Shown here one piece after another: positions 194-56,758 of a stretch of DNA of 64,000 nt. The translations under genes were made by a program, and so were the position numbers. Location of the stretch: positions 1,746,001 through 1,810,000 of the forward strand of contig JAIGNY010001587.1 in NCBI GenBank assembly GCA_020152595.1, in the 5' to 3' direction. Every line of letters begins with the position of its first letter. Position 1 is the stretch's first letter. A model generated the notes under the pieces. It ran no database searches. It had not been told where the DNA came from and saw only the letters and a program-made list of their open reading frames with translations. The stretch comes from Chiridota heheva. Taxonomy: Eukaryota; Echinodermata; Holothuroidea; Apodida; Chiridotidae.

Positions 194-800
194 ATGAAAT
201 ACCAAATTAACCCCAACATAACCTACCCTGAGGCCAGGAAACAATTCCTCGCTTCCCTTAACTCCAAGCCTTCCTACTCAAACGTAGTCTCCTCTAACTC
301 TAATTCCGCCCCCCCAAACACAACTAACACAACAAAAACTAACTCCCATGCCCAAACCGACCTCACCTGGCTCTTCTTACCTAGTCCTAAGCCCATCACC
401 ATTTCCAACAACCCAATCACACCCAATACCCACACCACCTCCACCTCCACTTCTCTCCTCAACCCCCCTTCCTACTCTAAAGCCCCTACGCCCCTACACC
501 AACTCCACTAATACCTTCATACATCAAGCTAAAACCAGCCAAGCAAACAACCAACAAACCAACAAATCAACCAGCAAACAACCAACCAAAAAACAACCAA
601 TCAACAAACAACCTATCAACAAACAACCAATCAACAAACAACCCACCTCCCAAACCCACACTGAAGAGAGTATGGATTGTTCGATTACCGAACACACCGA
701 TCATACTTCTCGTCCAATTTTCAAAAACAATCGCTCCCAAAGAAACAAATCCAAAGAAAAAACAAGCGAACTCAGACCCAGCAGATCTTCCTCCAGATAA
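194..800 (+). pseudogene. LINE ORF1 (gag-like) C-terminal remnant
   Basis: The first readable frame (194-511) carries the phrase ITYPEARKQFL, which resembles the segment just after the zinc knuckles in I-type ORF1 proteins. The knuckles themselves are absent, so the copy starts downstream of them. Translation then has to shift frame near 490, and the second frame (to about 800) is low in complexity: Asn/Thr/Pro/Ser-rich, followed by a KQPIN-type repeat. The fragment ends just before the ORF2 start at 814. The ORF1 assignment is inferred from position and this short similarity; the frameshift is visible directly. Confidence 0.65.
540..655 (+). repeat. Short tandem repeat inside LINE ORF1 (KQPIN codons)
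   Basis: About eight degenerate copies of a 12-16 bp CAACAAACAACC-like unit. In the ORF1 frame they give repeated Lys-Gln-Pro-Ile-Asn. It is probably slippage expansion within the element, because it keeps the reading frame over its length. Confidence 0.7.
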
Positions 801-813
801 CCCCGCCTCCTTT

Positions 814-3800
814 ATGGCATACACCACAATCAATTACAATAACACCCACAACATCATACAATGGAACATTAGGAGCCTTAAGGCCAATTCTGAAGAAATC
901 GACCTTCTGGCCTCCACCTTCAACCCGGTCGTCTTCTGCCTACAAGAAACTTTCTTGAAAACCACCGACCATTACTCCCTTAACAACTTTGCTTGCTATC
1001 ACAAACATCAAGTGGATGCTGACAGGGCCTGTGGTGGCGTCTCCATTCTCGTTAGACACGATATCCCACACAGCCCTGTTCGTGTGCACACCGACCTTCA
1101 GGCCATCTGTATTTCTATCTCCCTCCACAAAACTTTCACTCTCTGCAATATCTATCTCCCTCCCAACACCAACATTCAACCAACCAGCCTTAACAACCTC
1201 ATCTCTCAGCTTCCCACCCCCTTCATCCTTCTTGGTGACTTCAACGCTCACAACCCTCTGTGGGGCTCTAATACCACCACCCCTAGAGGCAAGTTCATCA
1301 AAACGCTCTCCGTCAGCACAGCCTGTCCTTACTGAACACTAACTCCCCGACCTACCTTCATCCTGCCACAGGCTCTCTCACCTGTATTGACCTGTCTATC
1401 TGTTCCCTAACCTCCTCCTTGACTTTAGTTGGAGAGTCACTGCTGACCTCTGTGGTAGTGATCATTACCCTCTTCTTATACACTCCAATCTTCAAATCCC
1501 CACTGAGCACACCCCCAACTGGAACCTCGACAAGGCTGACTGGTCCCTTTTTGAAACCCTCTGTGACTCACACCTCTCCCCCATCTTCTCGAGGATGAGG
1601 ATCCCATGTCTAACTTCAGTAATATCCTTATCAACATCGCCACCTGCTCAATTCCCAAAACCTCCAAACCCCAAATCATCCCCCCCAACCCCTGGTTCTC
1701 AGATGACTGCAAAACCGCCATCAAGAACAGGAAAAGAGCCCTCAGGAACTTTAAAACTAACCCGACCACCCATAACCTTAACCTCTTTCGCATCAGCCGT
1801 GCAAGGCCAGACGCACTATCAAGGACAGTAAAACCAACACTTGGAACAACTTTATCTCTTCTCTCACCACCAACACCCCCACTAAGAAGATTTGGAGAAT
1901 GGTTAACAGCTTCCACGGCAGAGTAGGCAAATCTTCCATCTCCCATCTCTCTTGGAATGGAGACCTTCTCACCATAAAAAAAGACATCGTTGACCACCTC
2001 GCCGCCTCTTTCAGCAACATCTCGGCCTCGACCAACTACTCCAATGCTTTCAAAATCAAAAAAGCTTGCGATGAAGCCCGGAGAATCACTTTTCCCTCTG
2101 ACAACTCCAAAGCTACAACACCCCTCTCACCCTTTCTGAATTAAACCAAGCCATCAGCGACGCTGGCTGCACCTCCAAGGGCCCAGATAACATCCCCTAT
2201 CAGTTTCTGAAACACCTCCCCATCAAAGCCACCACTACCCTACTCACCATCTTCAACCACATTTAGTCCTCACACTCCTTTCCCCTATCTGGAGGACAGC
2301 TATTGTCATCCCGTCCTTAAACCGGGAAGGATAGCACCGACCCACCAGCTACCGACCCATCGCCCTTACTTGCTGTCTCTGTAAAATTATGGAAAAGATC
2401 ATTAATCAGAGACTAAACTGGTTCCTCGAGACCAACAGAATCTCTCTCCTCACCAAAGCGGCTTCAAAAACGTTGCAATACCTAGACCAGTTAATTACGC
2501 TCGACACCGCTATCCGGGAATCCTTTGCAAAAAGGAACACCTCATTGCCATATTTTTTGACCTCGAGAAAGCTTTCGACACTACTTGGAAATACGGCATT
2601 ACCCGAAACTTCACACCATTGGCCTCAGAGGCCACCTCCCCATCTTTATTCAAAACTTCCTCTCACCCAGGCAGTTCCAAGTTCAGTATTGGCCACACCC
2701 TCTCCAAGCCGTGCCCCCAAGAAGAGGGCGTCCCCCAAGGCAGCATCCTCTCCCCACTCTCTTCAACCTGAGCATTAATGACATCGGGAATGACCTTGGC
2801 CCCAGCATCAAACGTACCCTCTCGTGGATGACTTCACCATCTTCTACTCCTCCCCTAGCTTTCCTATTGTTGAAAATAGGCTTCAAACCAGCCTCAATCA
2901 GCTGCAAGTCTGGAGCAACAATAACGGTTTTAGATTCTCCAAAGACAAGACAGTCTGCATGCACTTTTGTCATTTCAACAACCTCCACCCCAACCCGAAC
3001 TTTGTGCTCAATGGGAATCGCATCCCTAAAGTTGAAAACACAAAGTTCCTTGGTCTAACTCTAGACCCCAAGCTCACCTACAAGCCACACATCACCAACC
3101 TGAAACTAAAATGCAATAGCTCCCTCAACCTCCTCCGACTGCTCTCCAACACTACTTGGGGAGCGAACCGCTATGCTCTCCTCAAAATTTTCAGGCTCAC
3201 CATTCGTGCCAAGCTTGACTATGGCAATATTGTTTACTGTGTCGCTCACAACTCATACCTCAACCACATTAACACCATCCAAAATGAAGCCCTCAGGCTT
3301 TGTCTAGAGCCTACAGGACCTCCCCAATCACTAGCCTTCATGTTGAAGCCAACGAACCCCCTTTTTACTTAGATGTAAAAAGCTTAGCCTCTCCTATGCT
3401 TTTAGGGTCCTCACCAACACCCAGAACCCTGTTTACAACCTCATTAGGTACCCCAATTTCTCCTCCCTCTTTGATAGGACTAAAACCCTATCGCCCCCCC
3501 TTCAGCTTACGCATTAAATCAGACCTCTTTCAACTTGGCATCAACCCCGCCACTCTCGGCACCTATTCCTGGCCCACTTTTCCGCCTTGGGCCACCCCCT
3601 TCCTTCTGTCCACCTAGACCTCTCCACTTATAACAAAACTCAAACTCACCCTAATCTCTTCATCAATCTCACAACCAAATCAAAGACCAACTCTCAAATT
3701 ACACCTCCATCTATACTGATGGCTCCAAGGAAGGCAACAAGACAGCTGCTGCTGCCATCATCCAAGACATCACCCTCAGTAGCAGACTTCCTGACCACTC

Positions 3801-4453
3801 ATCCATCTTTTCAGCCGAGGCTAAGGCCATTCTCCTCGCCCTCAACTTTATTGAGTACTCTCCTCTTAGTCACTTTGCCATTTTCTCTGACTCCAAGGCT
3901 GTTCTTACTTCATTACTCAATCTTAAATGGGATAACCTCACCTGCCACCTCCTCCTCCGGAAACTCTTTTCTCCCACCCTCTGCAGGAAAAGTGTTCTTT
4001 TCTTCTGGATACCCAGCCATGTTGGCATCCTGGCAATGACAGGGCTGATACAGCCGCTAAGCTTGCCCTTAACCTCCTCCCTTCCCCTTTTCCCAAAACC
4101 CTCTCTGACATCAAACCGCTTATCGCTTCTCTTGTTCGTGACCGCTGGCAAACCTTATGGAACTTCCAAATTGATAACAAACTCCATGTTATCCAGCCCA
4201 CAATCCCGATCAAATCCACCATCAACAACCTTTCTCGTATCGACAACGCGTTCATATTACCCGTCTTAGAATTGGTCACACCCACCTCACTCACTCCCAC
4301 CTCCTTATTGGTTCCCCCAACCCTCTGTAACAATTGCCACTGCAGCCTTACAATCCAACACGTTCTCCTTGCTTGCCCCTGTACAACCTTCCCAGAGCTT
4401 CTCTCGCTCCCCACAACTCAATTGCTGAGTTCTTCCAAAAAATCCTCCAGATA
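814..4453 (+). pseudogene. LINE ORF2 remnant: endonuclease, reverse transcriptase, RNase H
   Basis: ORF2 would encode the enzyme that nicks the target and copies the element RNA. The endonuclease block starts at the ATG at 814 and shows QWNIRS, QET, GDFNAH and, in another frame near 1459, SDHY, which are the conserved residues of the APE-like fold. The linker (1600-2100) keeps an NPWFSDDC motif. The RT block starts near 2130 with a GPDNIPYQFLK motif. It continues with SYRPIAL-like text near 2350, DLEKAFD near 2560, GVPQGSILSPLLFNL near 2730 and VDDF at 2824, where the first residue of the usual Y/F-x-DD box is Leu. RNase H begins with YTDGSK near 3714 and keeps the later Asp and a WIPSHVG motif. 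A C-terminal CNNC...H...C knuckle lies near 4330. At least six frameshifts or stops separate these blocks, so no functional protein is possible. Confidence 0.9.
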
Positions 4454-4692: not shown

Positions 4693-4717
4693 ATCAAACA
4701 AACAAACAAACAAACTA
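4693..4717 (+). repeat. (CAAA)n 3' tail of the LINE
   Basis: Six CAAA units directly follow the element's 3' untranslated region and mark its 3' boundary. Short tandem tails rather than poly(A) are known in several LINE clades. Confidence 0.8.
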
Positions 4718-5542
4718 ATTATCAGAAAATGTTGATGGATATTATTGTGGAAATGAGTAAATTGCAGTAACTGGGTGAAATTACAATATTTCAGAGGTTT
4801 TACTTCCTATAGGCCTATATGTGTGAAAGATTTTTGATCTATATTCAGATATTTAGAAAATCAGACTGCTGTTTCACAGTAAATTTGAGCAGCATGCAGA
4901 CATTGCCGTCAAAAGTTACATAGAATTAAGAGGGCGTAGTAAAATCAAGAGATAAGTATCACTGCTTGTATTCCTTGGCATGCTAGTATACCACCCACCC
5001 TGCATAACCACCTTTGCAGTACTACTGGCAGCACACTATGTTTCCGGAAAGGTCATCTAAATCTGGGAAGAACAGTTCATAAAAAGTTTTTTCTTATCTT
5101 GGTAATGGCTGATCAAAGTTCCAAGTCTTTTTTTTTGTAATATATGCAAAATTCATGGCATAGTAAATTGATGCCATAACTGAAATGTTATGTAATTCTA
5201 CATGTCACTTAGGGATACCATGCTGCTTGCTGCTCACTGATATTTTCAAGTTTCCAAACATTTAATGTACAGTCCATGGCATGTAATGCATTTGGAAAAG
5301 TGTGTGTTTATTTGGCTAGAAACACAGAAATTTAGCTTTAGACACTTTTTTAACCATTAGATGCAGTGATGGATCTATGCTGTTAAGTTTAAGTTTATGA
5401 TGTTGTTATAGAATATACATATCCTATTCAGAGGCGTATCTAGCTTTTACTTTTTGAGGGGTTTTAAGCACCTAAATGTTTCATTTGTCCAAAATTGAAA
5501 GTTTTTGGTCTTAGCCAGAGGCGTAGGAAGCTGGGGAGGGGG
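4718..5542. other. AT-rich spacer without recognisable genes
   Basis: I see no credible coding region here. Two short pieces (near 5430 and 5517) read AGAGGCGTAG or similar, the kind of terminus often seen on degenerate DNA transposons. The second lies immediately outside foldback structure A. Confidence 0.5.
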
Positions 5543-6194
5543 ATCCTAAGATGATTGTGTCTTCCCGGTTAAATGCTTTTTGCAAGATTGCGATTTTGTT
5601 TCTTCAAAATTGGAAAAATTGAAGACAAATTCTGGGTCAAACTTGGCAATATTTTCCGAAAATTGAAGAAAATTTCTTCCGATAATTGAATAATATTTCT
5701 CGAAAATTGATGGACATTTTCCAAAAATAAAGATAATTTTCCTACAATTTAAGAAATTTCCCTAAATTAAACTAAACAAAATTTCCTGAAAATTTAAGGA
5801 GATTTCTGATTAGCATTGATGTTTGATCGAGACTTAATTTACCAGTGCAATTTTTCCGCCCATAACTGGGAAGTCGAGTCACAACTGTGACCCTACCTAT
5901 TGCTTCTGGTCCTGAATTGGAGATTTTGGCACCTGAATTGTAAAGTTTGTTCCAAAAATATTGATTTTCTGTCAAAAGTGAAGTTTTCTGATCCACAATT
6001 TTGGTGTAAACTGGAAAAGTTGCAGTCCAAAATAATCCAGTCAATTAGAATGAAAAATGCTTGCATCTCTGGTTCATTTGATATTTCAGTTAATTATATA
6101 AAACTTGCCTTTTTTTGGGAGGGGGTCTACAGCATTTGGGAGGGGGCTATGCCTCCAGTACCCCCTCTTTAGACACAGCACTGATCCTATAATT
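5543..6194 (+). repeat. Left inverted arm of foldback A
   Basis: This is the reverse complement of 7646-8298. Parts of it (the segment around AGCATTGATGTTTGATC and the GAAAATTGAAGAAAATT runs) recur in diverged form near 27.2, 47.0 and 50.4 kb, so the arm belongs to a dispersed family. Confidence 0.85.
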
Positions 6195-6744
6195 GAAGGT
6201 TTTAGTTCTGTAGGATGATAAAGGAATACTTTGACAACAAATTTAAAATGTATGGTATAGATAGTAATTAGCTGCCACAATTTTTTCTGCAGTCATGCAG
6301 TTTAACAAAAGTTGAAAAAATACTACTGATCATACACCTGGAAAGATACTCTTCATTATTACCTGGGCCATCAGCCCTTGCCACACATATAGTACAAAAT
6401 GCCATGTTGAAAAATTAGCTGATATTACAAAATAAGGATATGAAAAATCCTATATTTTTCCCCTCATAACCTTAAAAACTAATTTTTTCTCAACTATTTT
6501 TATAAAATTCCTATATATTTTCTTAACCTTGGTGGGAGGCCTGATTTTTGCATATTTGTATATTCATGTCTGCATATATTTGCATTTTCATATTCATATT
6601 TTATATTATGTATCAGCTTATAGAATTATGTTCACTTTCTATATACGTCTTCTTATTGCTGATTTTATTGAAAATTAGCCAATTTTTTACACATTAGAGA
6701 TATCGTTTCTCCGCTTCATATAAAACTTGTGACAAAATATGTCA

Positions 6745-7156
6745 ACAATGGGATGACAAGGTATACTATACATGGTAAAGTAGATTAGGCCCGTTAAAAA
6801 AAATAGAAGTTATATAAACCTAACGCAGTTCTAAAGTGATGCTTGCAGGCATTTTTTTATATATTTTTTTCCAAGCCAATTCATTTGGCAGTTTGCAACA
6901 TTCGGAATCAGGTCAACCACATCAATCGTAATAAATATTGAAAGCTATCAGAAGGAATCATTCGTATTTTGGTAGAATAAGACTAAAGTACGGACGCTGA
7001 ATAACTGCTCCAGTAGAAAAATATGGTACTTTTCCTTTAAAGATATTGGAATCTTTCAAACGTGATGCGCACGAGGGTGATAAACTAATAAAGAAATTGT
7101 ATTGGGCCTTATGTTGCTTTGTGTGTTTTGTTGATTATTGTGGTGCATGCATTGGT
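6745..7156 (+). repeat. Core module, copy 1 (inside foldback A)
   Basis: About 410 bp starting ACAATGGGATGACAAGG. It recurs almost identically in the same orientation at 9894-10307, and in both places is followed directly by the 35-bp array. No ORF of note. Confidence 0.85.
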
Positions 7157-7645
7157 TAGTTGTAGAACGTTTGACTTAGTTATGGTTAGAAAAGTTATAG
7201 AACGTTTGACTTAGTTATGGTTAGAAAAGTTATAGAACGTTTGACTTAGTTATGGTTAGAAAAGTTATAGAACGTTTGACTTAGTTATGGTTAGAAAAGT
7301 TATAGAACGTTTGACTTAGTTATGGTAAGAAAAGTTGTAGAACGTTTGACTTAGTTATGGTTAGAAAAGTTATAGAACGTTTGACTTAGTTATGGTTAGA
7401 AAAGTTATAGAACGTTTGACTTAGTTATGGTTAGAAAAGTTATAGAACGTTTGACTTAGTTATGGTAAGAAAAGTTGTAGAACGTTTGACTTAGTTATGG
7501 TTAGAAAAGTTATAGAACGTTTGACTTAGTTATGGTTAGAAAAGTTGTAGAACGTTTGACTTAGTTATGGTTAGAAAAGTTATAGAACGTTTGACTTAGT
7601 TATGGTTAGAAAAGTTATAGAACGTTTGACTTAGTTATGGTTAGA
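7157..7645 (+). repeat. 35-bp minisatellite, 14 copies
   Basis: Head-to-tail units contain AACGTTTGACTTAGTT followed by ATGGTTAGAAAAG. Units differ mainly at two sites (GTTATAG/GTTGTAG and GGTTAG/GGTAAG). The pattern of variants repeats along the array, which suggests block duplication. There are no unique spacers, so this is not a CRISPR array. Confidence 0.95.
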
Positions 7646-8298
7646 AATTATAGGATCAGTGCTGTGTCTAAAGAGGGGGGGGTACTGGAGGCATAGCCCC
7701 CTCCCAAATGCTGTAGACCCCCTCCCAAAAAAAGGCAAGTTTTATATAATTAACTGAAATATCAAATGAACCAGAGATGCAAGCATTTTTTATTCTAATT
7801 GACTGGATTATTTTGGACTGCAACTTTTCCAGTTTACACCAAAATTGTGGATCAGAAAACTTCACTTTTGACAGAAAATCAATATTTTGGAACAAACTTT
7901 ACAATTCAGGTGCCAAAATCTCAATTCAGGACCAGAAGCAATAGGTAGGGTCACAGTTGTGACTCGACTTCCCAGTTATGGGCGGAAAAATTGCACTGGT
8001 AAATTAAGTCTCGATCAAACATCAATGCTAATCAGAAATCTCCTTAAATTTTCAGGAAATTTTGTTTAGTTTAATTTAGGGAAATTTCTTAAATTGTAGG
8101 AAAATTATCTTTATTTTTGGAAAATGTCCATCAATTTTCGAGAAATATTATTCAATTATCGGAAGAAATTTTCTTCAATTTTCGGAAAATATTGCCAAGT
8201 TTGACCCAGAATTTGTCTTCAATTTTCCCAATTTTGAAGAAACAAAATCGCAATCTTGCAAAAAGCATTTAACCGGGAAGACACAATCATCTTAGGAT
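7646..8298 (-). repeat. Right inverted arm of foldback A
   Basis: Reverse complement of 5543-6194 with only scattered substitutions, such as a longer G run near 7675. It follows the last 35-bp repeat unit directly and abuts foldback B with no spacer. Confidence 0.85.
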
Positions 8299-9701
8299 GA
8301 TTAATTTGCAAGTTTCTTATTAACTGTCATATCATTGCATATCATGGAATATTTGTTCCAGGATATTTATTCATAAGCCACGACCAACATGCATGATGCA
8401 GAGCAATAAAATAGACAACACTAGCATGTGCACAAATAATTAACAACATTATCATAGCAAGTATGATGTAAAACGGACATACGGTTGCTCATGTATCATA
8501 TTTGAAGAATTCTAGGTTAAGCCCGCCCACTCATTAATATGCATGTATCACCACCAAAACTAATAAGGCACATCCACAGACCATGGGCTATCTGTGTATC
8601 ACATATGACTTGAATCCAGTCTATCATTCTTTAGATACCATGGTTACAAGCTTTTTTCACTAAAATCATATTAAGCCTCACCCACTAAGCATACTAATGA
8701 AATTCAAAGTTTTTTTTATACCATGAACATGTACACACTAGCAAACATTTATAACTGTGCCAAATATGAAACAAAAATATATATGTGGTTCTTATAATAT
8801 GAGCTTTTCAATTTTTTTACATTCAGCTCCGCCTACTCATTAATATGCATGACATCACCACGAAAAACAAGAGGGCACATCAAACAGACCATGAGCTATC
8901 TGCGTACCACATAACTTGAATTCAGTTTATCCTTCTTTAGATATCATGTTTACAAAATCTTTTCAGAAAATCATATTAGGCCCCACCCACTATGCATATT
9001 AATGAAATTCAACGTTTTTAAACCCTGGACATGTACACACTAGCTAACATCATAACTACCAAATATGAAACAAAACAGATATGCGGTTGTTAAAATATGA
9101 ACATTTCAAGATTTTTACATTAATCCCTGCCTACTCATTAATATGCATGACATCACCACCAAACACAATAAGGCACATCTACGGACCATGTGCTATCTGT
9201 GTGCCACATATGACATGAATCTACTGTACCGTTTTTGAGATATCGTGTTCATGAGCTGGCCGTCACACACACACACACCCACCCACATACATACACACAC
9301 ACGCCATCATGACCGCATAGTTTTCTGATGCTATCGCATTGGAACCAGAAATGGCGGCTCCCATAGAAGTAGCATTTTTTTTTAAATTTTAATAATTACA
9401 AAAATTGTAATAGATTATTTTGGGAGGTACAAAACTTGGTTGGAAGATTTGTTATTTTTATTTCTATCATATCAAATAAGAATTGTGTCAGATTTTATGT
9501 CTCGCTATAAATCCTTTTGAGCCATGAAAAGAGCTAGGAGTTCTGACATGAAGTCAAGAAATGGCTCAGTTTGTGCTTATATGTCTTTCTTAAAATAAGA
9601 GTGAATGCAATGTTTTGTTAAACTTGTTAAAAAGAAAACAAATATTATCACCGGGCATAATTATTTGAAAAGCTTAAAGGATGCCAGCTATTATCTTAAC
9701 T
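8298..9701 (-). repeat. Left inverted arm of foldback B (family C repeat, reverse orientation)
   Basis: Reverse complement of 11037-12445. It shows CTCATTAATATGCATG-type motifs near 8530, 8829 and 9130, a spacing of about 300 bp, and a CA-rich tract at 9263-9302. Confidence 0.85.
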
Positions 9702-9893
9702 AAGTCAAACGTTCTACAACTTTTCTAACCATAACTAAGTCAAACGTTCTACAACTTTTCTAACCATAACTAAGTCAAACGTTCTACAACTTTTCTAACT
9801 ATAACTGAGTCAAACGTTCTATAACTTTTCTAACCATAACTAAGTCAAACGTTCTATAACTTTTCTAACCATAACTAAGTCAAACGTTCTATG
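9702..9893 (-). repeat. 35-bp minisatellite, about 5 inverted copies
   Basis: The same 35-bp unit as at 7157 and 10308, on the opposite strand, leading directly into the core module. Confidence 0.9.
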
Positions 9894-10307
9894 ACAATGG
9901 GATGACAAGGTATACTATACATGGTAAAGTAGATTAGGCCCCGTTAAAAAAAAATAGAAGTTATATAAACCTAACGCAGTTCGAAAGTGATGCTTGCAGG
10001 CATTTTTTTATATATTTTTTTCCAAGCCAATTCATTTGGCAGTTTGCAACATTCGGAATCAGGTCAACCACATCAATCGTAATAAATATTGAAAGCTATC
10101 AGAAGGAATCATTCGTATTTTGGTAGAATAAGACTAAAGTCACGGACGCTGAATAACTGCTCCAGTAGAAAAATATGGTACTTTTCCTTTAAAGATATTG
10201 GAATCTTTCAAGCGTGATGCATACGAGGGTGATAAACTAATAAAGAAATTGTATTGGGCCTTATGTTGCTTTGTGTGTTTTGTTGATTATTGTGGTGCAT
10301 GCATTGG
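9894..10307 (+). repeat. Core module, copy 2 (spacer of foldback B)
   Basis: Nearly identical direct copy of 6745-7156, differing by a few substitutions and small indels. It lies between inverted and direct 35-bp arrays. Confidence 0.85.
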
Positions 10308-11036
10308 TTAGTTGTAGAGCGTTTGACTTAGTTATGGTTAGAAAAGTTATAGAACGTTTGACTTAGTTATGGTTAGAAAAGTTATAGAACGTTTGACTTA
10401 GTTATGGTTAGAAAAGTTATAGAACGTTTGACTTAGTTATGGTAAGAAAAGTTGTAGAACGTTTGACTTAGTTATGGTTAGAAAAGTTATAGAACGTTTG
10501 ACTTAGTTATGGTTAGAAAAGTTATAGAACGTTTGACTTAGTTATGGTTAGAAAAGTTATAGAACGTTTGACTTAGTTATGGTTAGAAAAGTTGTAGAAC
10601 GTTTGACTTAGTTATGGTAAGAAAAGTTGTAGAACGTTTGACTTAGTTATGGTTAGAAAAGTTATAGAACGTTTGACTTAGTTATGGTTAGAAAAGTTAT
10701 AGAACGTTTGACTTAGTTATGGTTAGAAAAGTTATAGAACGTTTGACTTAGTTATGGTTAGAAAAGTTATAGAACGTTTGACTTAGTTATGGTTAGAAAA
10801 GTTGTAGAACGTTTGACTTAGTTATGGTTAGAAAAGTTATAGAACGTTTGACTTAGTTATGGTTAGAAAAGTTATAGAACGTTTGACTTAGTTATGGTTA
10901 GAAAAGTTATAGAACGTTTGACTCAGTTATAGTTAGAAAAGTTGTAGAACGTTTGACTTAGTTATGGTTAGAAAAGTTGTAGAACGTTTGACTTAGTTAT
11001 GGTTAGAAAAGTTGTAGAACGTTTGACTTAGTTAAG
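10308..11036 (+). repeat. 35-bp minisatellite, about 21 copies
   Basis: Longest array of the 35-bp unit in the window. Only its distal five or so copies are mirrored in the left arm, so the two arms differ in array length. Confidence 0.95.
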
Positions 11037-12445
11037 ATAATAGCTGGCATCCTTTTAGCTTTTCAAATAATTATGCCCTTTCATTATTGACATGTCAGGA
11101 GTGACAATATTTGTTTTTAACAAGTTTAACAAACATTGCATTCACTCTTATTTTATGAAAGACAAGCACAAACTGAGCCATTTCTTGACTTCATGTCAGA
11201 ACTCCTAGCTCTTTTCATGGCTCAAAAAGATTTATAGCGAGACATAAAATCTGACATAATCCTTATTTGATATGATAGAAATAGAAATCACAAATCTTCC
11301 GACCAAGTTTTGTACCTCCCAAAATAATCTATTACAATTTTTGTAATTATTAAAATTTAAAAAAAAATGCTACTTCTATGGGAGCCGCCATTTCTGGTTC
11401 CAATGCGATAGCATCAGAAAACTATGCGGTCATGATGGCGTGTGTGTGTATGTATGTATGTGGGTGTGTGTGTGTGTGACGGCCAGCTCATGAACACGAT
11501 ATCTCAAAAACGGTACAGTAGATTCATGTCATATGTGGCACACAGATAGCACATGGTCCGTAGATGTGCCTTATTGTGTTTGGTGGTGATGTCATGCATA
11601 TTAATGAGTAGGCAGGGATTAATGTAAAAATCTTGAAATGTTCATATTTTAACAACCGCATATCTGTTTTGTTTCATATTTGGTAGTTATGATGTTAGCT
11701 AGTGTGTACATGTCCAGGGTTTAAAAACGTTGAATTTCATTAATATGCATAGTGGGCGGGGCTTAATATGATTTTGCTGAAAAGATTTTGTAAACATGAT
11801 ATCTAAAGAAGGATAAACTGGATTCAAGTCGTGTGGTACACAGATAGCTTATGGTCTGTAGATGTGCCCTATTGTTTTTTGTGGTGATGTCTTGCATATT
11901 AATGAGTAGGCGGAGCTGAATGTAAAAAAATTGAAAAGCTCATATTATAAGAACCACATATATATTTTGTTTCATATTTGGTACAGTTATGATGTTTGCT
12001 AATGTGTACATGTTCATGGTATAAAACAAGTTTGGATTTCATTAGTATGCTTTGTGGGTGAGGAGGCTTAATATGAATTTAGTGAAAAAGGCTTGTAATC
12101 ACGGTATTTAAAGAATGATAGGCTGGTTTCAAGTCATATGTGATACACAGACAGCCCATAGTCTATGGATGTGCCTTATTAGTTTTGGTGGTGATACCAT
12201 GCATATTAATGAGTAGGCGGGGCTTAACCTAGAATTCTTCAAATATGATACATGAGCAACCATATGTCTGTTTTGCATCATACTTGCTATGATAATGTTG
12301 TTAATTATTTGTGCACATGCTAGTGTTGTCTATTTTATTGCTCTGCATCATGCATGTTGGTCGTGGCTTATGAATAAATATCCTGGAACAAATATTCCAT
12401 GATATGCAATGATATGACAGTTAATAAAAACTTGCAAATTAATCA
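11037..12445 (+). repeat. Right inverted arm of foldback B (family C repeat)
   Basis: Contains GCATATTAATGAGTAGG motifs at about 11595, 11895 and 12198, and the alternate motif CATTAATATGCATAGTGGG at about 11738, giving ~150-bp alternation within a 300-bp period. Several copies carry GGGCGGGGC, a consensus Sp/KLF GC box. Family C seems to continue past the arm to about 12500. Confidence 0.8.
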
Positions 12446-13790
12446 GCATATGAAAAAAAGCATTGGAACCACGAAACCTTTTGATTCTGGTTATTTTAAA
12501 GCATGCTGAAAATCCAGTTATCAATTTAAATGGAATGCTTTTGTTTTTCTTTATAATATATCTCAAGTTTTCTAGCTTATGAAAAATCTGTTTCCCTTTT
12601 GTAAGAGTCCATGACATTTTTGTATATACATGAAATTCCCAAAACATGCTATTTAAACTTTGTCACATCATTTTTCAATAAAAACTTTTATTTTGGGAAA
12701 TTGAACAAAATGGCAGCCTCCATGCATCAACTTCAAACATGACAAACTTAGATAAGATAAATGTTGGAATAAGATTTTGACTTGCTGTTTTTATTAGTTG
12801 GTCTACATTTTAATCCTCCCTCTATCCTGTGAAACAAGGATTGTATCAGACTGTCTCCTTTATAAGTAGGCTTGGAGAGTAGAAGCTGCAACGTTCCTAA
12901 CATGGGTTCACATCATGATCATTTTGATGCTTTGCAGTCGAAGATTAAGACTTCATTCAAGTAAAATAAGGCTTTCTGGCCTCTTCATAAACAGGAACAT
13001 ATTTCTTAATTTTACCTCAAAGTGGGACACATGGTGTGTGTCCATTTCATGGATATTCTGTACTTCCTTCCATCCATTGCATTAGGTTACATATATTTTG
13101 AAACATCTTAAATGTTGATGACATCTAGAGGCAACTTGAGCTTACATATCCTGCAACTAACATATTCTGCAATTAACTGTATTTCAAATCATTAGCTGTT
13201 GTTCATTGCATCTCCCTCATTCTTGCATGCACCCATATTATTCATCTGTACCACACCCGCTGTAATCATCAGGAGTGCCAAACAGAGCAGCCATCATTCC
13301 AAAGACCTGTCCTCCCAGACTAACCCGAGCACTGACAATATCCCTGTACCATCCTCCGCTTCTCTCTCCAATCATCAAATAGAACTGCAGAAATCTTATT
13401 CTGAGCTGTGTAGGTAAGTCATACCAGTATCATCCTCACAAGTGCTTACAGGATTAGTTCAGTGGATAAGCAAGTTCATCTTATATGAAAGAAAAGTTTA
13501 GAAGACACACGATAGTGGAGAAAGCATTCAAAAATACTGTTCCATTAAGGAGATGTGAAGAGCTGGCGGCCGAAAAATGAGGACATATTTTTCTGGAGTC
13601 TCATAATAAATTGAATAACTTTATTACACCCATTGGTACAGAATATCATAAACGCTATTAAATCCCGACCCGATTACTCAAAATTGGTATATGTTTTCAA
13701 CATTTACTTGTGAATTTGTTTGCATGGGAGCACATTTCTGTATCCCACAATAGTTAGAAACAGACTGTGTAATGTGACTTCTATTGGTTT
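12446..13790. other. Spacer with one MITE fragment, no gene seen
   Basis: AT-rich sequence without coding signals. The only recognisable piece is a family A fragment at 13440-13575 (GGATTAGTTCAGTGG, then CTTATATGAAAG). Confidence 0.5.
13440..13575 (+). mobile_element. Family A MITE fragment (left end)
   Basis: Matches the left terminus of the fuller copies at 40.2 and 42.6 kb: GGATTAGTTCAGTGG, ATCTTATATGAAAG, then GAAAGCATTCAAAA and a TTAAGGAGAT segment. Confidence 0.65.
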
Positions 13791-26130: not shown

Positions 26131-27185
26131 TCAGAGGTGTATGTGGCAGGGTGGGGAGGGACGGTGGGAGTGATTCAGAGGTGTATGTGAGAGGGTAGGG
26201 AGGGAAGGTGGAGGTGTATGTGGGAGGGTGGGGAGGGAAGGTGGGGGTGATTCAGAGGTGTATATGGCAGGGTGGGGTGGGGGAAGGTGGTAGTGATTCA
26301 GAGGTGTATGTGGCAGGGTAGGGAGGGACGGTGGGAGTGATTCAGAGGTGTATGTGGCAGGGTGGGTAGGAAAGGTGGGAGTGATTTAGAGGTGTATGTG
26401 GGAGGGTGGGGAGGGAAGGTGGTAGTGATTTAGAGGTGTATGTGGCAGGGTAGGGAGGAAAGGTGGGAGTGATTCAGAGGTGTATGTGGCAGGGTGGGGA
26501 GGGAAGGTGGTAGTGATTCAGAGGTGTATGTGGCAGGGTAGGGAGGGACTGGAAGTGATTCAGAGGTGTATGTGGCAGGTTGGGGAGGAAAGGTGGGAGT
26601 GATTCAGAGGTGTATATGGCAGGGTGGGGAGGGAAGGTGGTAGTGATTCAGAGGTGTATGTGGCAGGGTAGGGAGGGACTGGAAGTGATTCAGAGGTGTA
26701 TGTGGCAGGTTGGGGAGGAAAGGTGGGAGTGATTCAGAGGTGTATTTGGCAGGGTGGGGAGGGAAGGTGGTAGTGATTCAGAGGTGTATGTGGCAGGGTA
26801 GGGAGGAAAGGTGGGAGTGATTCAGAGGTGTATATGGCAGGGTGGGGAGGGAAGGTGGTAGTGATTCAGAGGTGTATGTGGCAGGGTAGGGAGGGACTGG
26901 AAGTGATTCAGAGGTGTATGTGGCAGGTTGGGGAGGAAAGGTGGGAGTGATTCAGAGGTGTATTTGGCAGGGTGGGGAGGGAAGGTGGTAGTGATTCAGA
27001 GGTGTATGTGGCAGGGTAGGGAGGGACTGGAAGTGATTCAGAGGTGTATGTGGCAGGTTGGGGAGGAAAGGTGGGAGTGATTCAGAGGTGTATTTGGCTG
27101 AGTGGGAGTGATTCAGAGGTGTATGGGGTGGGAGTAATTCAGAGGTGTATGTGGCAGGGTGGGGAGGGAAGGTGGGAGTGGAAGT
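26130..27185 (+). repeat. G-rich ~44-bp minisatellite (about 25 copies)
   Basis: Units contain GATTCAGAGGTGTATGTGGC and AGGGTGGGGAGGGAAGGTGG. The central part is organised as a higher-order repeat of three variant units (~128 bp). The GGG-T-GGGG-A-GGG run plus the following GGG meets the usual G-quadruplex pattern in many units. Confidence 0.95.
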
Positions 27186-27904: not shown

Positions 27905-30012
27905 ATCTAAACCCCATGTCTATATCCAGAAGGCCTATCCAGGGTTTGTGGACCCCATGTCTATATCCAGAAGGCCTATCTAGAGTTTGTGGACCCCATG
28001 TCTAGTTTCAGAAGGCCTATCCAAAGTTTGTGGACCCCATTGCTATATCCAGAAGGCCCACTCAGGGTTTGTGGACCCCATGGTTATATCCAGAAGGGCC
28101 ATGCAGGATTTGTGGACCCCATGGCTATAATAATCCAGAAGGCCTATCCAAAGTTTGTGGACCCCGTGGCTATATCTAGAAGGCCCATCCAGGGATTGTG
28201 GACCCCATGGCTATATCCAGAGGGTCCATCCAGGGTTTGTGGACCCCATGGATATATCCAGAAGGCCCATCAAGGGTTTGTGGACCCCATGGCTATATCC
28301 AGAAGGACCATCCAGGGTTTGAGGACCCATGGCTATATCCAGAAGGCTCATCCAGGGTTTGTGGATCCCATGGCTATATCCAGAAGGCCCATCCAGGTTC
28401 TTTAGGATTTGTGGACCCCATATCTACATCCAGAAAGCCATCCAGGGTTTGTGGACCCCATGGTTATATCCAGAAGAACCATCCAAAGTTTGAGGACCCC
28501 ATGCTTATATCCAGAATGCCCATCCAGGGTTTGTGGACCCCATGGCTATATCCAGAAGGCTCATCCATGGTTTGTGGATCTCATGGCTATATCCAGAAGG
28601 CCCATCCAGGGTTTGTGGACCCCATATCTACATCCAGAAAGCCATCCAGGGTTTGTGGACCCCATGGCAATATCAAGAAGGTTCATTCTCCAGGGTTTGT
28701 GGATCCCATGGCTATATCCAGAAGGCACATCCAGGTTATGCAGTGCTTGTGGACCCCATATCTATATCCAGAAGGCCCATCCAGGGTTTGTGGACCCCAT
28801 GGCTATATCCAGAAGGCCCATCCATGGTTTGTGGAACCCATGTCTATATCCAGAAGGCCCATCCACATTCTCAAGGATTCGTGGACCCATGGCTATATCC
28901 AGAAGGCCAATCCAGGGTTTGTGGACCCATGGTTATATCCAGAAGGCCCATCCAGGGTTTGTGGACCCCATGTCTATATCCAAAAGGCCCATCCACGTTC
29001 TCAAGGGTTCGTGGACCTCATGTCTATGTCCAGAAGGCTCATCCACGTTCTCAAAGATTTGTGGGCTCCATGCCTATATCCAAGAGGCCCATCGACGTTC
29101 TCAAGGCTTTGTGGACCCCATGCTTATATTCAAAAGGCCCATCCACGTTCTCAAGAATTCGTGGACCGCATGCTTATATTCAGAAGGCCCATCCACGTTC
29201 TCAAGGCTTTGTGGACCCCATGACTATATCCAGAAGGCCCATCCATGTTCTCAAGAGTTCGTGGACCCATGCCTATATCCAGAAGGCCCATCCACGTTTT
29301 CAAGGGTTAGTGGACCCCAGGTCTATATCCAGAAGGCTCATCCACGTTCTCAAGGGCTCGTGGACCCCCGTGTTTATATCCAGAAGGCCCATCCACGTTC
29401 TCAAGGGTTCGTGAACTCCCGTGTCTATAACCAGAATGCCCATCCGCGTTATCAAGGGTTCGTGGACCCCATGTTTACATCCAGAGGGCCCATTCGCATT
29501 CTCAAGGGCTCGTGAACCCCATGTCTACATCCAGAAGGCCCATCCACGTTCTCAAGGGTTCGTCGAAGACATGGCTATATCCAGAAGGCCCATCCAGGGT
29601 TTGTGAACCCCATGTCTGTATCCAGAAGGCCCATCCTGGGTTTTGGACCCCATGGCTGAATCCAAAAGGCCCATCCAGGATTTTGGGCCCCATGACTATT
29701 TCCAGAAGGCCCATCCAGGGCTTATGGACCTCATGGCTATATCCAGAAGACCCATCCAGGGTGTGTGGACCTCGTGGCTATATCCAGAAGACCCATCTAG
29801 GGTGTGTGGACCTCATGGCTATATCCAAAAGACCCATCCAGGGTGTGTGGACCTCATGGCTATATCCAGAAGACCCATCCAGGGTGTGTGGACCCCGTGG
29901 TTATATCCGGAAGACCCATCCAGGGTGTGTGGACCTCATGGATATATCCAAAAGGCCCATCCAGGTTCTCCAGGGCTTGTGGATAACCTTTGCCATATCC
30001 AGAAGGCAACTA
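27905..30012 (+). repeat. 2.1 kb minisatellite of 41-bp and ~50-bp units, open in all three forward frames
   Basis: The base unit is TATATCCAGAAGGCCCATCC followed by AGGGTTTGTGGACCCCATGGC (41 bp). Region 27905-28860 is mainly this type. Region 28860-29570 is mainly a ~50-bp variant with CACGTTCTCAAGGGTTCGTG. Region 29580-30000 returns to 41 bp with GTGTGTGGACCTC. Neither 41 nor 50 is a multiple of 3 and the unit has no stop in any forward frame, so overlapping frames of 341, 368 and 293 codons exist with peptides such as GYIQKAHPGFVDPMAISRR. No splice, start context or domain supports a real gene. Confidence 0.95.
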
Positions 30013-30547: not shown

Positions 30548-30973
<426 letters not shown>

Positions 30974-31103
30974 ATGGTTCCTAAAATAATTGTATTGTTT
31001 GAAAAGATAGCGTACAAGCTTTAATATAATTGCGTGTGGGGGAAGCAATAGCATATATAGGCTTATCCGAAATATACAAGAATTACAGGTGGCTGTTAGA
31101 GAT

Positions 31104-31311
<208 letters not shown>

Positions 31312-47299: not shown

Positions 47300-49525
<2,226 letters not shown>

Positions 49526-49609: not shown

Positions 49610-50830
<1,221 letters not shown>

Positions 50831-54446: not shown

Positions 54447-56758
54447 TCACATATGCCTTTTCATGTGCAGACTGAGATGATCTGATCTTGAGAACGCTCG
54501 TTCACAAAGATGACATTTAAAGGGGCGGTCTCCGGTGTGTTTACGGTAGTGGCGGGTCAGTTCATCGGAACGTGCAAATTTCCACCCACAACCTTTCCAG
54601 TTGCAATGGTATGGTTTCTCGCCGGTATGAGTCCTCATGTGTGCTTTCAGATGTGACGATTTGGTGTAGGTTTTCTGACAGCCTGCGTAGGTGCATGTGT
54701 GTGTTGTGGTGCGCTTTCTTCCCCATGTTCGGCGGCCGCGTTTACGCACAACTTGTGCGCCTGGAGCAAGATTTGGTGAGGTGGTATCAACTGGCGTACT
54801 CCGTAACAAACTAAGAAGTGGTGAGTTTGGCGGCGTATTTAGAGGTGAGAGCAGACCCTGCGAGTGTAACATTTGTGATTGTTGTTGAAGAGCAATAGAG
54901 TTCAGCTGTACAGAGAGTGGCTGCTGAGATCCAATAATGCTGTAAATCTCATTGTGTAGTGGTGCTATGGGCGGCGAGTGTGGTGGGGTGTGCATGTGTT
55001 GCATGGGCACAGGATGGTAGTTGAAAGGAAGATTTGCCTTGTAGCTGACTTGTGAAGAAAGATGATACGGATAAGCAGATGGTGCCTGGATTTTTTCCAA
55101 CAACAAACTCTGGATAACAGGAAAGTCTTTATCGTCTGAAATACTTCCTTCTTCCATGCTTTGACACATCGGGGGTGAAAGCGGTTCGTCTTTAATGATC
55201 ACGTGATCTTGACTTTGCTGGACCATAGAATGGTGCAGGTTATCAGGGTAGAGTGGCGGCAGAGACATTTCTTGGAATGGGAAGCTCATGCTATTATTAA
55301 GAATAAAGTCAAGATCCAGCAGTTCATCGTAATCGCAATGCATGTCGGGAGGAGGTGAAATGCAAATGTCGCCATCACTCCCATTGGAGATGACGGTTGA
55401 AGTGGGTGAACTTGGTTCCCTGTGGTTCATGGCAGCATTGGTGTCGTCATAGGTCACACCCAGGAGAGATTCGACCTCTGGCCAAAACTGAAAAATACAA
55501 TAGAGGAAAATACATTGTAAGTATATTGTTACGTAAATATAGCTTAAAACTGCAGCACATATACAATATTGCCCTCATATTATGTGGGCCTACAATAGCA
55601 TGAAGTTTATCGATCTGTTGTGGACAATATATTTGTGAAATTTGCAAAACGAGCGCCCTAACTTTTCGGTCTAGCACTCCTTTAACAAAATGTGGTCCCT
55701 AAACATATGTTTTTAACGCCACAGTTCTTATAACAATCTCCATCGAGATCCAGATTTTCATAATAAAAGTATGAATATCAAGCGATATTCTACAAAGTAG
55801 AAATTTAAATATCAAAGTTAAAATTACATATTGAACTGCCTTCTATAGTACTAGGGCTACAATAAATACAGTGATGACATCATCAAGTAAAGCATTTGAA
55901 CTTTATGAAATAATATAAAGTATAAAAAAAGTAAATCATTTGAAATTTAGGTAATCCGTCAATGCTGTGCATAATATTGTCAATATTAAAACTTCATATC
56001 TGGTTGTTCGTTACTAAAAAAATCAGATCTTATAAACATGAATTGAATTGCACAAAACCAAGCACATTTCACAATAATATTTCCTGTCAACAATATAATG
56101 AATGATAGCAAAATAATATTTACACATTAAAATATTTTATAAAATGAATGTCAAATACATTTCATGCAGCATCAAATTCAGTAAACACGACCCCCCCCCC
56201 CACCCCATTAGCGTAGCCAGAGGGGAACCTAGCCACCCCCACCCCCTCCCAATACCAAAACAATATTACATGAACCTTAAAAAGAGCAGCCAGGTCAAAA
56301 AAAAATCTCAAAAATGCACTTCGCAACGACTTATTCAACCCCCGCCCTCTTTAATTTTCGGTCATTGTATCGGCCAACTCTCCCTAATGATTTTTTTTGG
56401 ATACGCCAATGCTCCCCCCTTCCCCCTCCCTTTCCAGGGCTCTCTCCAAAAAAAACAATAGGGTTAAACTTGTCAGACGCCGAGAGGAAAACCTTCCCAT
56501 AATGTTCATTTCTTCAAAAGAGCTTTAATATTTCATCCTATCTGGGAACTATACTTTGCATTTGCTCAAGTCACGAAAGCTCACATGGATGTTTGAATGG
56601 GCCCCACACAGACACAAGCTAAAGCAATAGGCCTACATTAACAAACCGTTAATAGAACAGGGATTATCAAACACAAATTAATGGAAGAGAAATCAGCTTA
56701 CCTCGTTTGCAAGATTTGAAAATCCATCTTGATTCAATTCTGCTAATGTTACAGCCAT
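54447..56758 (-). CDS. Krueppel-like factor, KLF1/2/4 group (two coding exons)
   Basis: A nuclear DNA-binding transcription factor for GC-rich/CACCC sites. Coding exon 1 is 56758-56702 (19 codons, starts MAVTLAELN, ends at a GAG|GTAAGC donor). Coding exon 2 is 55487-54447 (acceptor TTTTTCAG|TTTTGG, phase 0). The product is about 365 residues, within the family range. Residues 71-82 ([12 protein letters not shown]) match the acidic activation segment of KLF2/4. Residues 117-124 (IKDEPLSP) fit the phosphorylation-dependent sumoylation motif. A basic [12 protein letters not shown] precedes three C-terminal C2H2 fingers: Cys284/289-His302/306, Cys314/319-His332/336 and Cys344/347-His360/364, with TGEKPYHC and TGDRPFKC linkers as in all KLFs. 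Group membership rests on the finger sequence plus the DLDFIL segment. The exact paralog cannot be fixed, and a non-coding 5' exon is possible. Confidence 0.93.
55488..56701 (-). other. KLF intron 1
   Basis: A 1.2 kb intron with GT...AG ends in phase 0. It holds a C-rich patch (56190-56260) and a TTAGCGTAGCCAGAGG piece resembling a transposon end. No other gene inside. Confidence 0.8.

Follow-up and report, generated by a model that had tools for sequence, protein, structure and literature searches.

The 64,000-nucleotide window of Chiridota heheva DNA that we analysed contains two structures with long inverted arms, A and B, lying side by side between positions 5543 and 12445. The arms of A are located at 5543-6194 and, as the reverse complement, at 7646-8298; 648 of their 655 aligned columns are identical, with 2 substitutions and 5 gap columns. 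Those of B, at 8298-9895 and 10836-12445, were observed to differ by 45 substitutions over 1583 aligned bases and by 13 indel events. The inverted arms of both structures are real, their length and identity making a test against chance needless. A sequence-only reading of this DNA had suggested that A and B meet at 8298 with no spacer and are built on one internal module, and our alignments bear out both points: A and B abut at 8298, and the module at 6745-7160 is identical to 9894-10312 in 412 of 419 columns and is followed in both by a 35-bp minisatellite. The same reading had assigned TGAT (8298-8301) to both pairings, of which the T at 8298 alone takes part in both. The minisatellite forms two direct arrays (7158-7647 and 10310-11034) and an inverted piece (9697-9892), the latter placing it partly inside the arms of B. 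No stop-to-stop frame of at least 130 aa was found in 5543-12445, and an Rfam scan of the 64-kb window gave 0 matches.

On the basis of local alignments, the region can be described as a series of blocks. Repeat X, a dispersed repeat, occupies 4700-6550 on the forward strand, its original copy being continuous across 5543 and 6194, and holds a non-autonomous insert at 5429-6183 (forward), flanked by an 8-bp target-site duplication, atcctatt/atcctata (5421-5428 and 6184-6191). Block a (5543-6194, forward) is the left arm of A. It is followed by block b (6195-6744, forward), which has no second local copy, local matches ending at 6194 and resuming at 6745, and by the first copy of block c (6745-7157, forward), which comprises about 40 bp of local sequence, a putative MITE-like repeat at about 6785-7115 and about 42 bp of local sequence. 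The left part of the first minisatellite copy (7158-7647, forward) has 14 35-bp units, the final one truncated. At junction J1 (7646-7647) the last two minisatellite bases, AA, are common to block a, whose inverted copy (7646-8298, reverse) forms the right arm of A. Junction J2 (8298) fuses the end of block a at 5543 to the end of block Y at 12445, with 1 bp of microhomology (T). The inverted copy of block Y (8298-9696, reverse), recognised from the local alignment and from flank scores, is the left arm of B, and is followed by the right part of the first minisatellite copy, also inverted (9697-9892, reverse), with 6 units, the last running into Y. Junction J3 (9893) connects this inverted minisatellite to the direct second copy of block c (9894-10309, forward), after which come the intact second copy of the minisatellite (10310-11034, forward; 21 units, the last running into Y) and the original block Y (11035-12445, forward), the right arm of B. 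Three kinds of sequence make up block Y: local sequence, a portion of a second dispersed repeat, and a further dispersed repeat whose tandem units are 298 bp long. The block-Y repeat continues past the boundary of B into 12446-12495 (forward). Locally, blocks a, c and Y are present in two copies each and block b in one.

The repeats in the arms allowed original and copied arms to be told apart. Three other places in the genome cross 5543, two of them as diverged copies that match in single alignments (4715-6550 in L007/L047 and 4760-6286 in L008/L048) and the third as a piece matching 5157-5641 (L050). The comparison for repeat X took in 28 loci (L047-L074), several of which are one place; among the rest, many are without the insert containing 5543 or match just part of it. 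In L047, L048, L049 and L051 the alignment extends 90 bases or more to either side of 6194. At the other end, all ten of the non-local Y-family loci examined (L011-L020) align across 12445 into 12446-12495, with flank scores of 34-77 where the best of 50 shuffles reached 27; against the same ten loci, the flank of the left B arm (8248-8297) scored only 19-24. Positions 5543 and 12445, taken by the sequence-only reading as the boundaries of the structures, are break points inside repeats and not element ends. Since the repeats continue past both, each structure has its outer arm as the original (left in A, right in B), and 7646-9895 is the inverted copy.

Genome-wide searches covered the 1.1 Gb assembly of 3744 contigs. 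A second genomic copy of A and B was sought through the junction at 8298, which was found once (1 forward and 0 reverse matches, allowing up to 2 mismatches). None of the three A-type loci (L006-L008) showed a second inverted arm. Outside the locus, the repeat part of the Y arm was matched at up to 87% identity (best 40 of 12951 candidates), and the longest non-local match to the block-a region had 78% (best 40 of 1904 candidates). For the inner B arm (9518-9700), the two local copies were the only matches among the 40 scored out of 1773 candidates. Among the matches scored in the assembly there was no second allele of the locus.

Copies of repeat X that do not carry the insert join about 5427 to about 6193, and we counted seven distinct places of this kind by eye in the alignments (L054, L058, L060, L065, L066 = L070, L069 and L073); an automatic count of 20 loci takes in insert-bearing copies, poor alignments and repeated places. 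Because these copies join the flanks directly, we regard 5429-6183 as an insert; it is labelled hAT-like from its CAG-type ends and the 8-bp duplication, no transposase having been seen. The inner boundary of A lies about 3 bp outside the target-site duplication of this insert. Repeat X itself is probably the 3' part of a decayed non-LTR retrotransposon that lies upstream.

The sequence-only reading had proposed that a core-plus-minisatellite unit was captured between inverted copies of local repeats. The core (about 6785-7115) appears, from its end motifs as judged by eye and from its copy number, to be a decayed MITE-like repeat, and 38 of its 40 scored matches lie outside the locus at 70-82% identity. 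We examined ten of these 38 loci over about 1.5 kb on either side, and at all ten the 35-bp array was absent, on which ground we rejected core and minisatellite as a mobile unit and found the proposed capture unsupported. Elsewhere in the assembly the minisatellite had no high-identity match, the one other hit being weak (66%, at C781). Since the core occurs elsewhere without the array, and since the minisatellite had no other close match and the inner B arm matched only locally among its scored candidates, the module is best read as local sequence that was duplicated along with its surroundings.

The order of variant units within the minisatellite was used as a ruler. The unit maps read AAAACAAACABAA plus a partial unit for the direct part (14 units), AADBB plus a partial unit for the inverted part (6 units) and EAACAAABCAAAABAAADBB plus a partial unit for the intact array (21 units). 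The inverted piece matches, in variant order, the six units with which the intact array ends; direct and inverted parts together make 14 + 6 = 20 units against 21, and their cut ends are about 4 bp apart within the 35-bp unit. The score of the joined map was reached by 2 of 5000 full shuffles of the units. Shuffling the direct part alone reached the observed score in 2951 of 5000 trials, so the signal in the map comes from the inverted piece, and the order of units in the direct part lends no support of its own.

Divergence between the copies is uneven. In the arms of B, 32 of the 45 substitutions fall within one 517-bp stretch, a clustering that none of 2000 permutations reached. By block, the differences amount to 2/650 in a, 4/416 in c, 32/517 in the clustered part of Y and 13/1066 in the rest of Y, the last being not clearly different from block a (Fisher p 0.06). 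Mean identity to the repeat family is 0.88 in the 517-bp stretch, 0.86 in 8991-9351 and 0.91 in 8298-8429, while identity between the arms is 0.943, 0.994 and 1.000, respectively. As the family identities are similar and the arm-to-arm identities differ, the local mutation rate fails to explain the contrast; a mutation-rate difference is not favoured by a family identity in the divergent stretch which, although below that of 8298-8429, is no lower than that of 8991-9351. Conversion of one arm by a donor from elsewhere in the family is also not favoured, the odd states being equally distributed: when 34 differing sites were compared with ten family copies, 16 favoured the left arm, 16 the right, and 2 were ties. 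Conversion between neighbouring 298-bp units found little favour either, since of the 30 oriented sites there were 29 for which the same arm offered another unit, and 5 of these showed the derived state there. It is probable that the initial divergence, about 6%, survives in the 517-bp stretch, and that the rest, blocks a and c included, has been homogenised by conversion.

We consider it fairly likely that the locus arose by a tandem duplication of about 3.75 kb (the sum of the block lengths in our forward model), followed by an inversion across the duplication junction in which about 550 bp were lost. The ancestral order would have been X-a-b-c-m-Y-Z, where m is the minisatellite, with one copy of each block. 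Duplicating in tandem the stretch between 5543 and what is now base 12445 would have produced a-b-c-m-Y|a-b-c-m-Y and with it the Y|a junction, as which we read J2. An inversion would then have taken in this junction, with one breakpoint within the first minisatellite and the other at the far end of the second block a, and the second copy would have lost its neighbouring block b, of about 550 bp. The outcome would be a-b-c-mL, inverted a, inverted Y with mR, and then c-m-Y, which is the order and orientation that we observe. We infer that the three new junctions were sealed by end joining, and parts of the arms would have been homogenised later by gene conversion. Microhomology amounts to 2 bp at J1 (AA), 1 bp at J2 (T) and 0-3 bp at J3, where there is either a 3-bp microhomology (TAT) with a loss of 3 bp, or none with one added base; such values fit end joining, as expected. 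All blocks come from one locus with the originals in place, and the junctions are blunt or microhomologous, as in a complex local rearrangement by duplication and inversion.

A forward model of these two steps, with the minisatellite cut after 15 units, aligned to 5001-13000 with 7924 matches, 58 mismatches and 91 gap bases, the largest gap being 31, a fit that is partly circular in that the original blocks were drawn from the window. Other cuts tried within 10-17 units gave 99 to 379 gap bases. Several points weigh against duplication and inversion: the unequal divergence of the blocks requires conversion, the unit order of the direct minisatellite part gives no support, the loss of block b must be added, and J3 has a reading with no microhomology. 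The closeness of the inner boundary of A to the target-site duplication of the hAT-like insert, about 3 bp, also counts against this model, which treats it as chance.

The same blocks and junctions could have been produced by a single replication-based event with three template switches and no tandem intermediate, and we hold this, the main rival, to be possible, though tentatively. Replication would proceed through c-m, change at 6194 to the opposite strand and return to 5543, switch to 12445 and run back into the minisatellite, and then switch at c to resume in the forward direction. The junction microhomology of 0-3 bp is compatible with template switching, and the unduplicated block b, which follows naturally from it, favours a replication event. 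The complementarity of the direct and inverted minisatellite parts (14 + 6 units against 21, with a phase difference of about 4 bp) is unpredicted by it, would occur by chance in a few percent of cases on a rough estimate that was not computed, and favours duplication followed by inversion. It is improbable that A and B are of different age, B having formed first and an inverted block a having been placed afterwards exactly where the minisatellite already met inverted Y. The low divergence of the arms of A beside the most diverged part of B would suit such a sequence of events, yet block c, which must then have been duplicated with B, is also little diverged, so that homogenisation is needed anyway; the rest of Y cannot be clearly separated from block a, and the insertion would have to fall exactly at an existing junction. 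An improbable proposal of another kind has the rearrangement begin with a break in the minisatellite and a cut made by a transposase where the hAT-like insert has its 3' end, close to the inner boundary of A, so that a non-autonomous element lying near a minisatellite would be able to make foldback-like structures repeatedly in the C. heheva genome.

Inverted arms are a known source of trouble in long-read work, which counts for an assembly artefact, whether from reads that are palindromic or chimeric or through the misjoining of two haplotypes. Judged from the assembled sequence this is quite improbable, as read-level palindromes would be near identical, yet the arms differ, and the even division of the 34 sites is what is expected if each arm mutated independently. 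An inverted triplication was rejected on copy number, with a, c and Y present twice and b once, and on block order. Least credible of all is a pair of foldback transposons whose long terminal inverted repeats are unrelated and enclose a common core, the undescribed transposon type suggested by the sequence-only reading. Long inverted arms with internal tandem repeats do resemble elements such as Tetris, as described in PMC4079207, a transposon for which that source gives a target-site duplication of 8-10 bp. Against this, the outer boundaries fall inside repeats, the A/B junction was found once, no target-site duplication could be seen by eye in the flanks at 5543, 8298 or 12445, and the core stood without the minisatellite at all ten loci examined. 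The other suggestion of that reading, serial palindromic duplication, was near the truth as regards inverted copying of local sequence; one compound duplication and inversion fits better than serial captures.

Abutting long inverted repeats around a common core can mimic a new transposon type, and caution is due in reading them; testing whether copies of the arm repeats cross the boundaries tells original from copied arms and reveals a local rearrangement. The foldback transposons FB, Galileo and Tetris, as presented in PMC4079207, share with this locus the long inverted arms, the tandem repeats within them and the small middle; here, in contrast, the outer boundaries are not element ends, the flanks showed no target-site duplication and no second copy was found in the assembly. 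DUP-TRP/INV-DUP structures and the inverted triplications explained by ODIRA, for which PMC10766186 proposes inverted triplication as a common start, share with this locus inverted local copies that have direct copies on both sides. No block is present three times here, the first minisatellite being divided into two parts, and inverted Y comes after inverted a, an order that a single inverted triplication would not give. Long inverted repeats with arms that have remained alike are reported from C. elegans (PMC1803023) and from a human Y palindrome (PMC3723533), the latter source describing conversion between the arms; the uneven arm identity observed here is, in the same way, best explained by arm-to-arm conversion. 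The present locus differs from these in being small, built of transposon remains and with no gene recognised. It is a modest worked example of a minisatellite serving as a ruler for an inversion breakpoint, of mosaic divergence between arms, and of duplication, inversion and probable conversion. With complex rearrangements of the type seen in tumours it has in common two duplicated stretches (a and c-m-Y) with single-copy b between them, inverted junctions and a single locus; it differs in having three junctions and not two, one of them of tandem-duplication type, in being part of an assembled genome, and in a duplicated length of about 3.75 kb. The locus is an old and complex local rearrangement whose material is largely transposon remains, and belongs to an ordinary, known class of event.

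The arms of foldback structure B carry a high-copy repeat, which was observed in two local copies at 11390-12495, extending past the B boundary at 12445, and at 8298-9351. This repeat, for which 12951 first-look candidates (preliminary matches) were obtained in the assembly, contains tandem units of 298 bp each and has mutually inverted GGTTCC(G/A)ATGC-like motifs close to its two ends. The copy at 8298-9351 is adjoined by a partial second dispersed repeat (9349-9511), and a query covering this piece (9340-9700) gave 1773 such candidates.

A decayed non-LTR retrotransposon was observed at 481-4269, immediately upstream of repeat X, the dispersed repeat containing the left arm of structure A. 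It showed Pfam matches to endonuclease, reverse transcriptase (RT) and RNase H, with two RT pieces scoring under the cut-off. Repeat X may be the 3' part of this element.

Elsewhere in the window, large minisatellites occupy 27911-29965 and 26211-27106, their units measuring 41 bp and 44 bp. Long AT dinucleotide arrays lie at 30613-31311, 48325-48662 and 49612-50408; those near 48-50 kb explain additional inverted repeats listed for the window. An open frame at 54447-55574 (- strand), containing three C2H2 zinc-finger stretches, is probably a host-gene exon. Judged by eye, its fingers are KLF-like.
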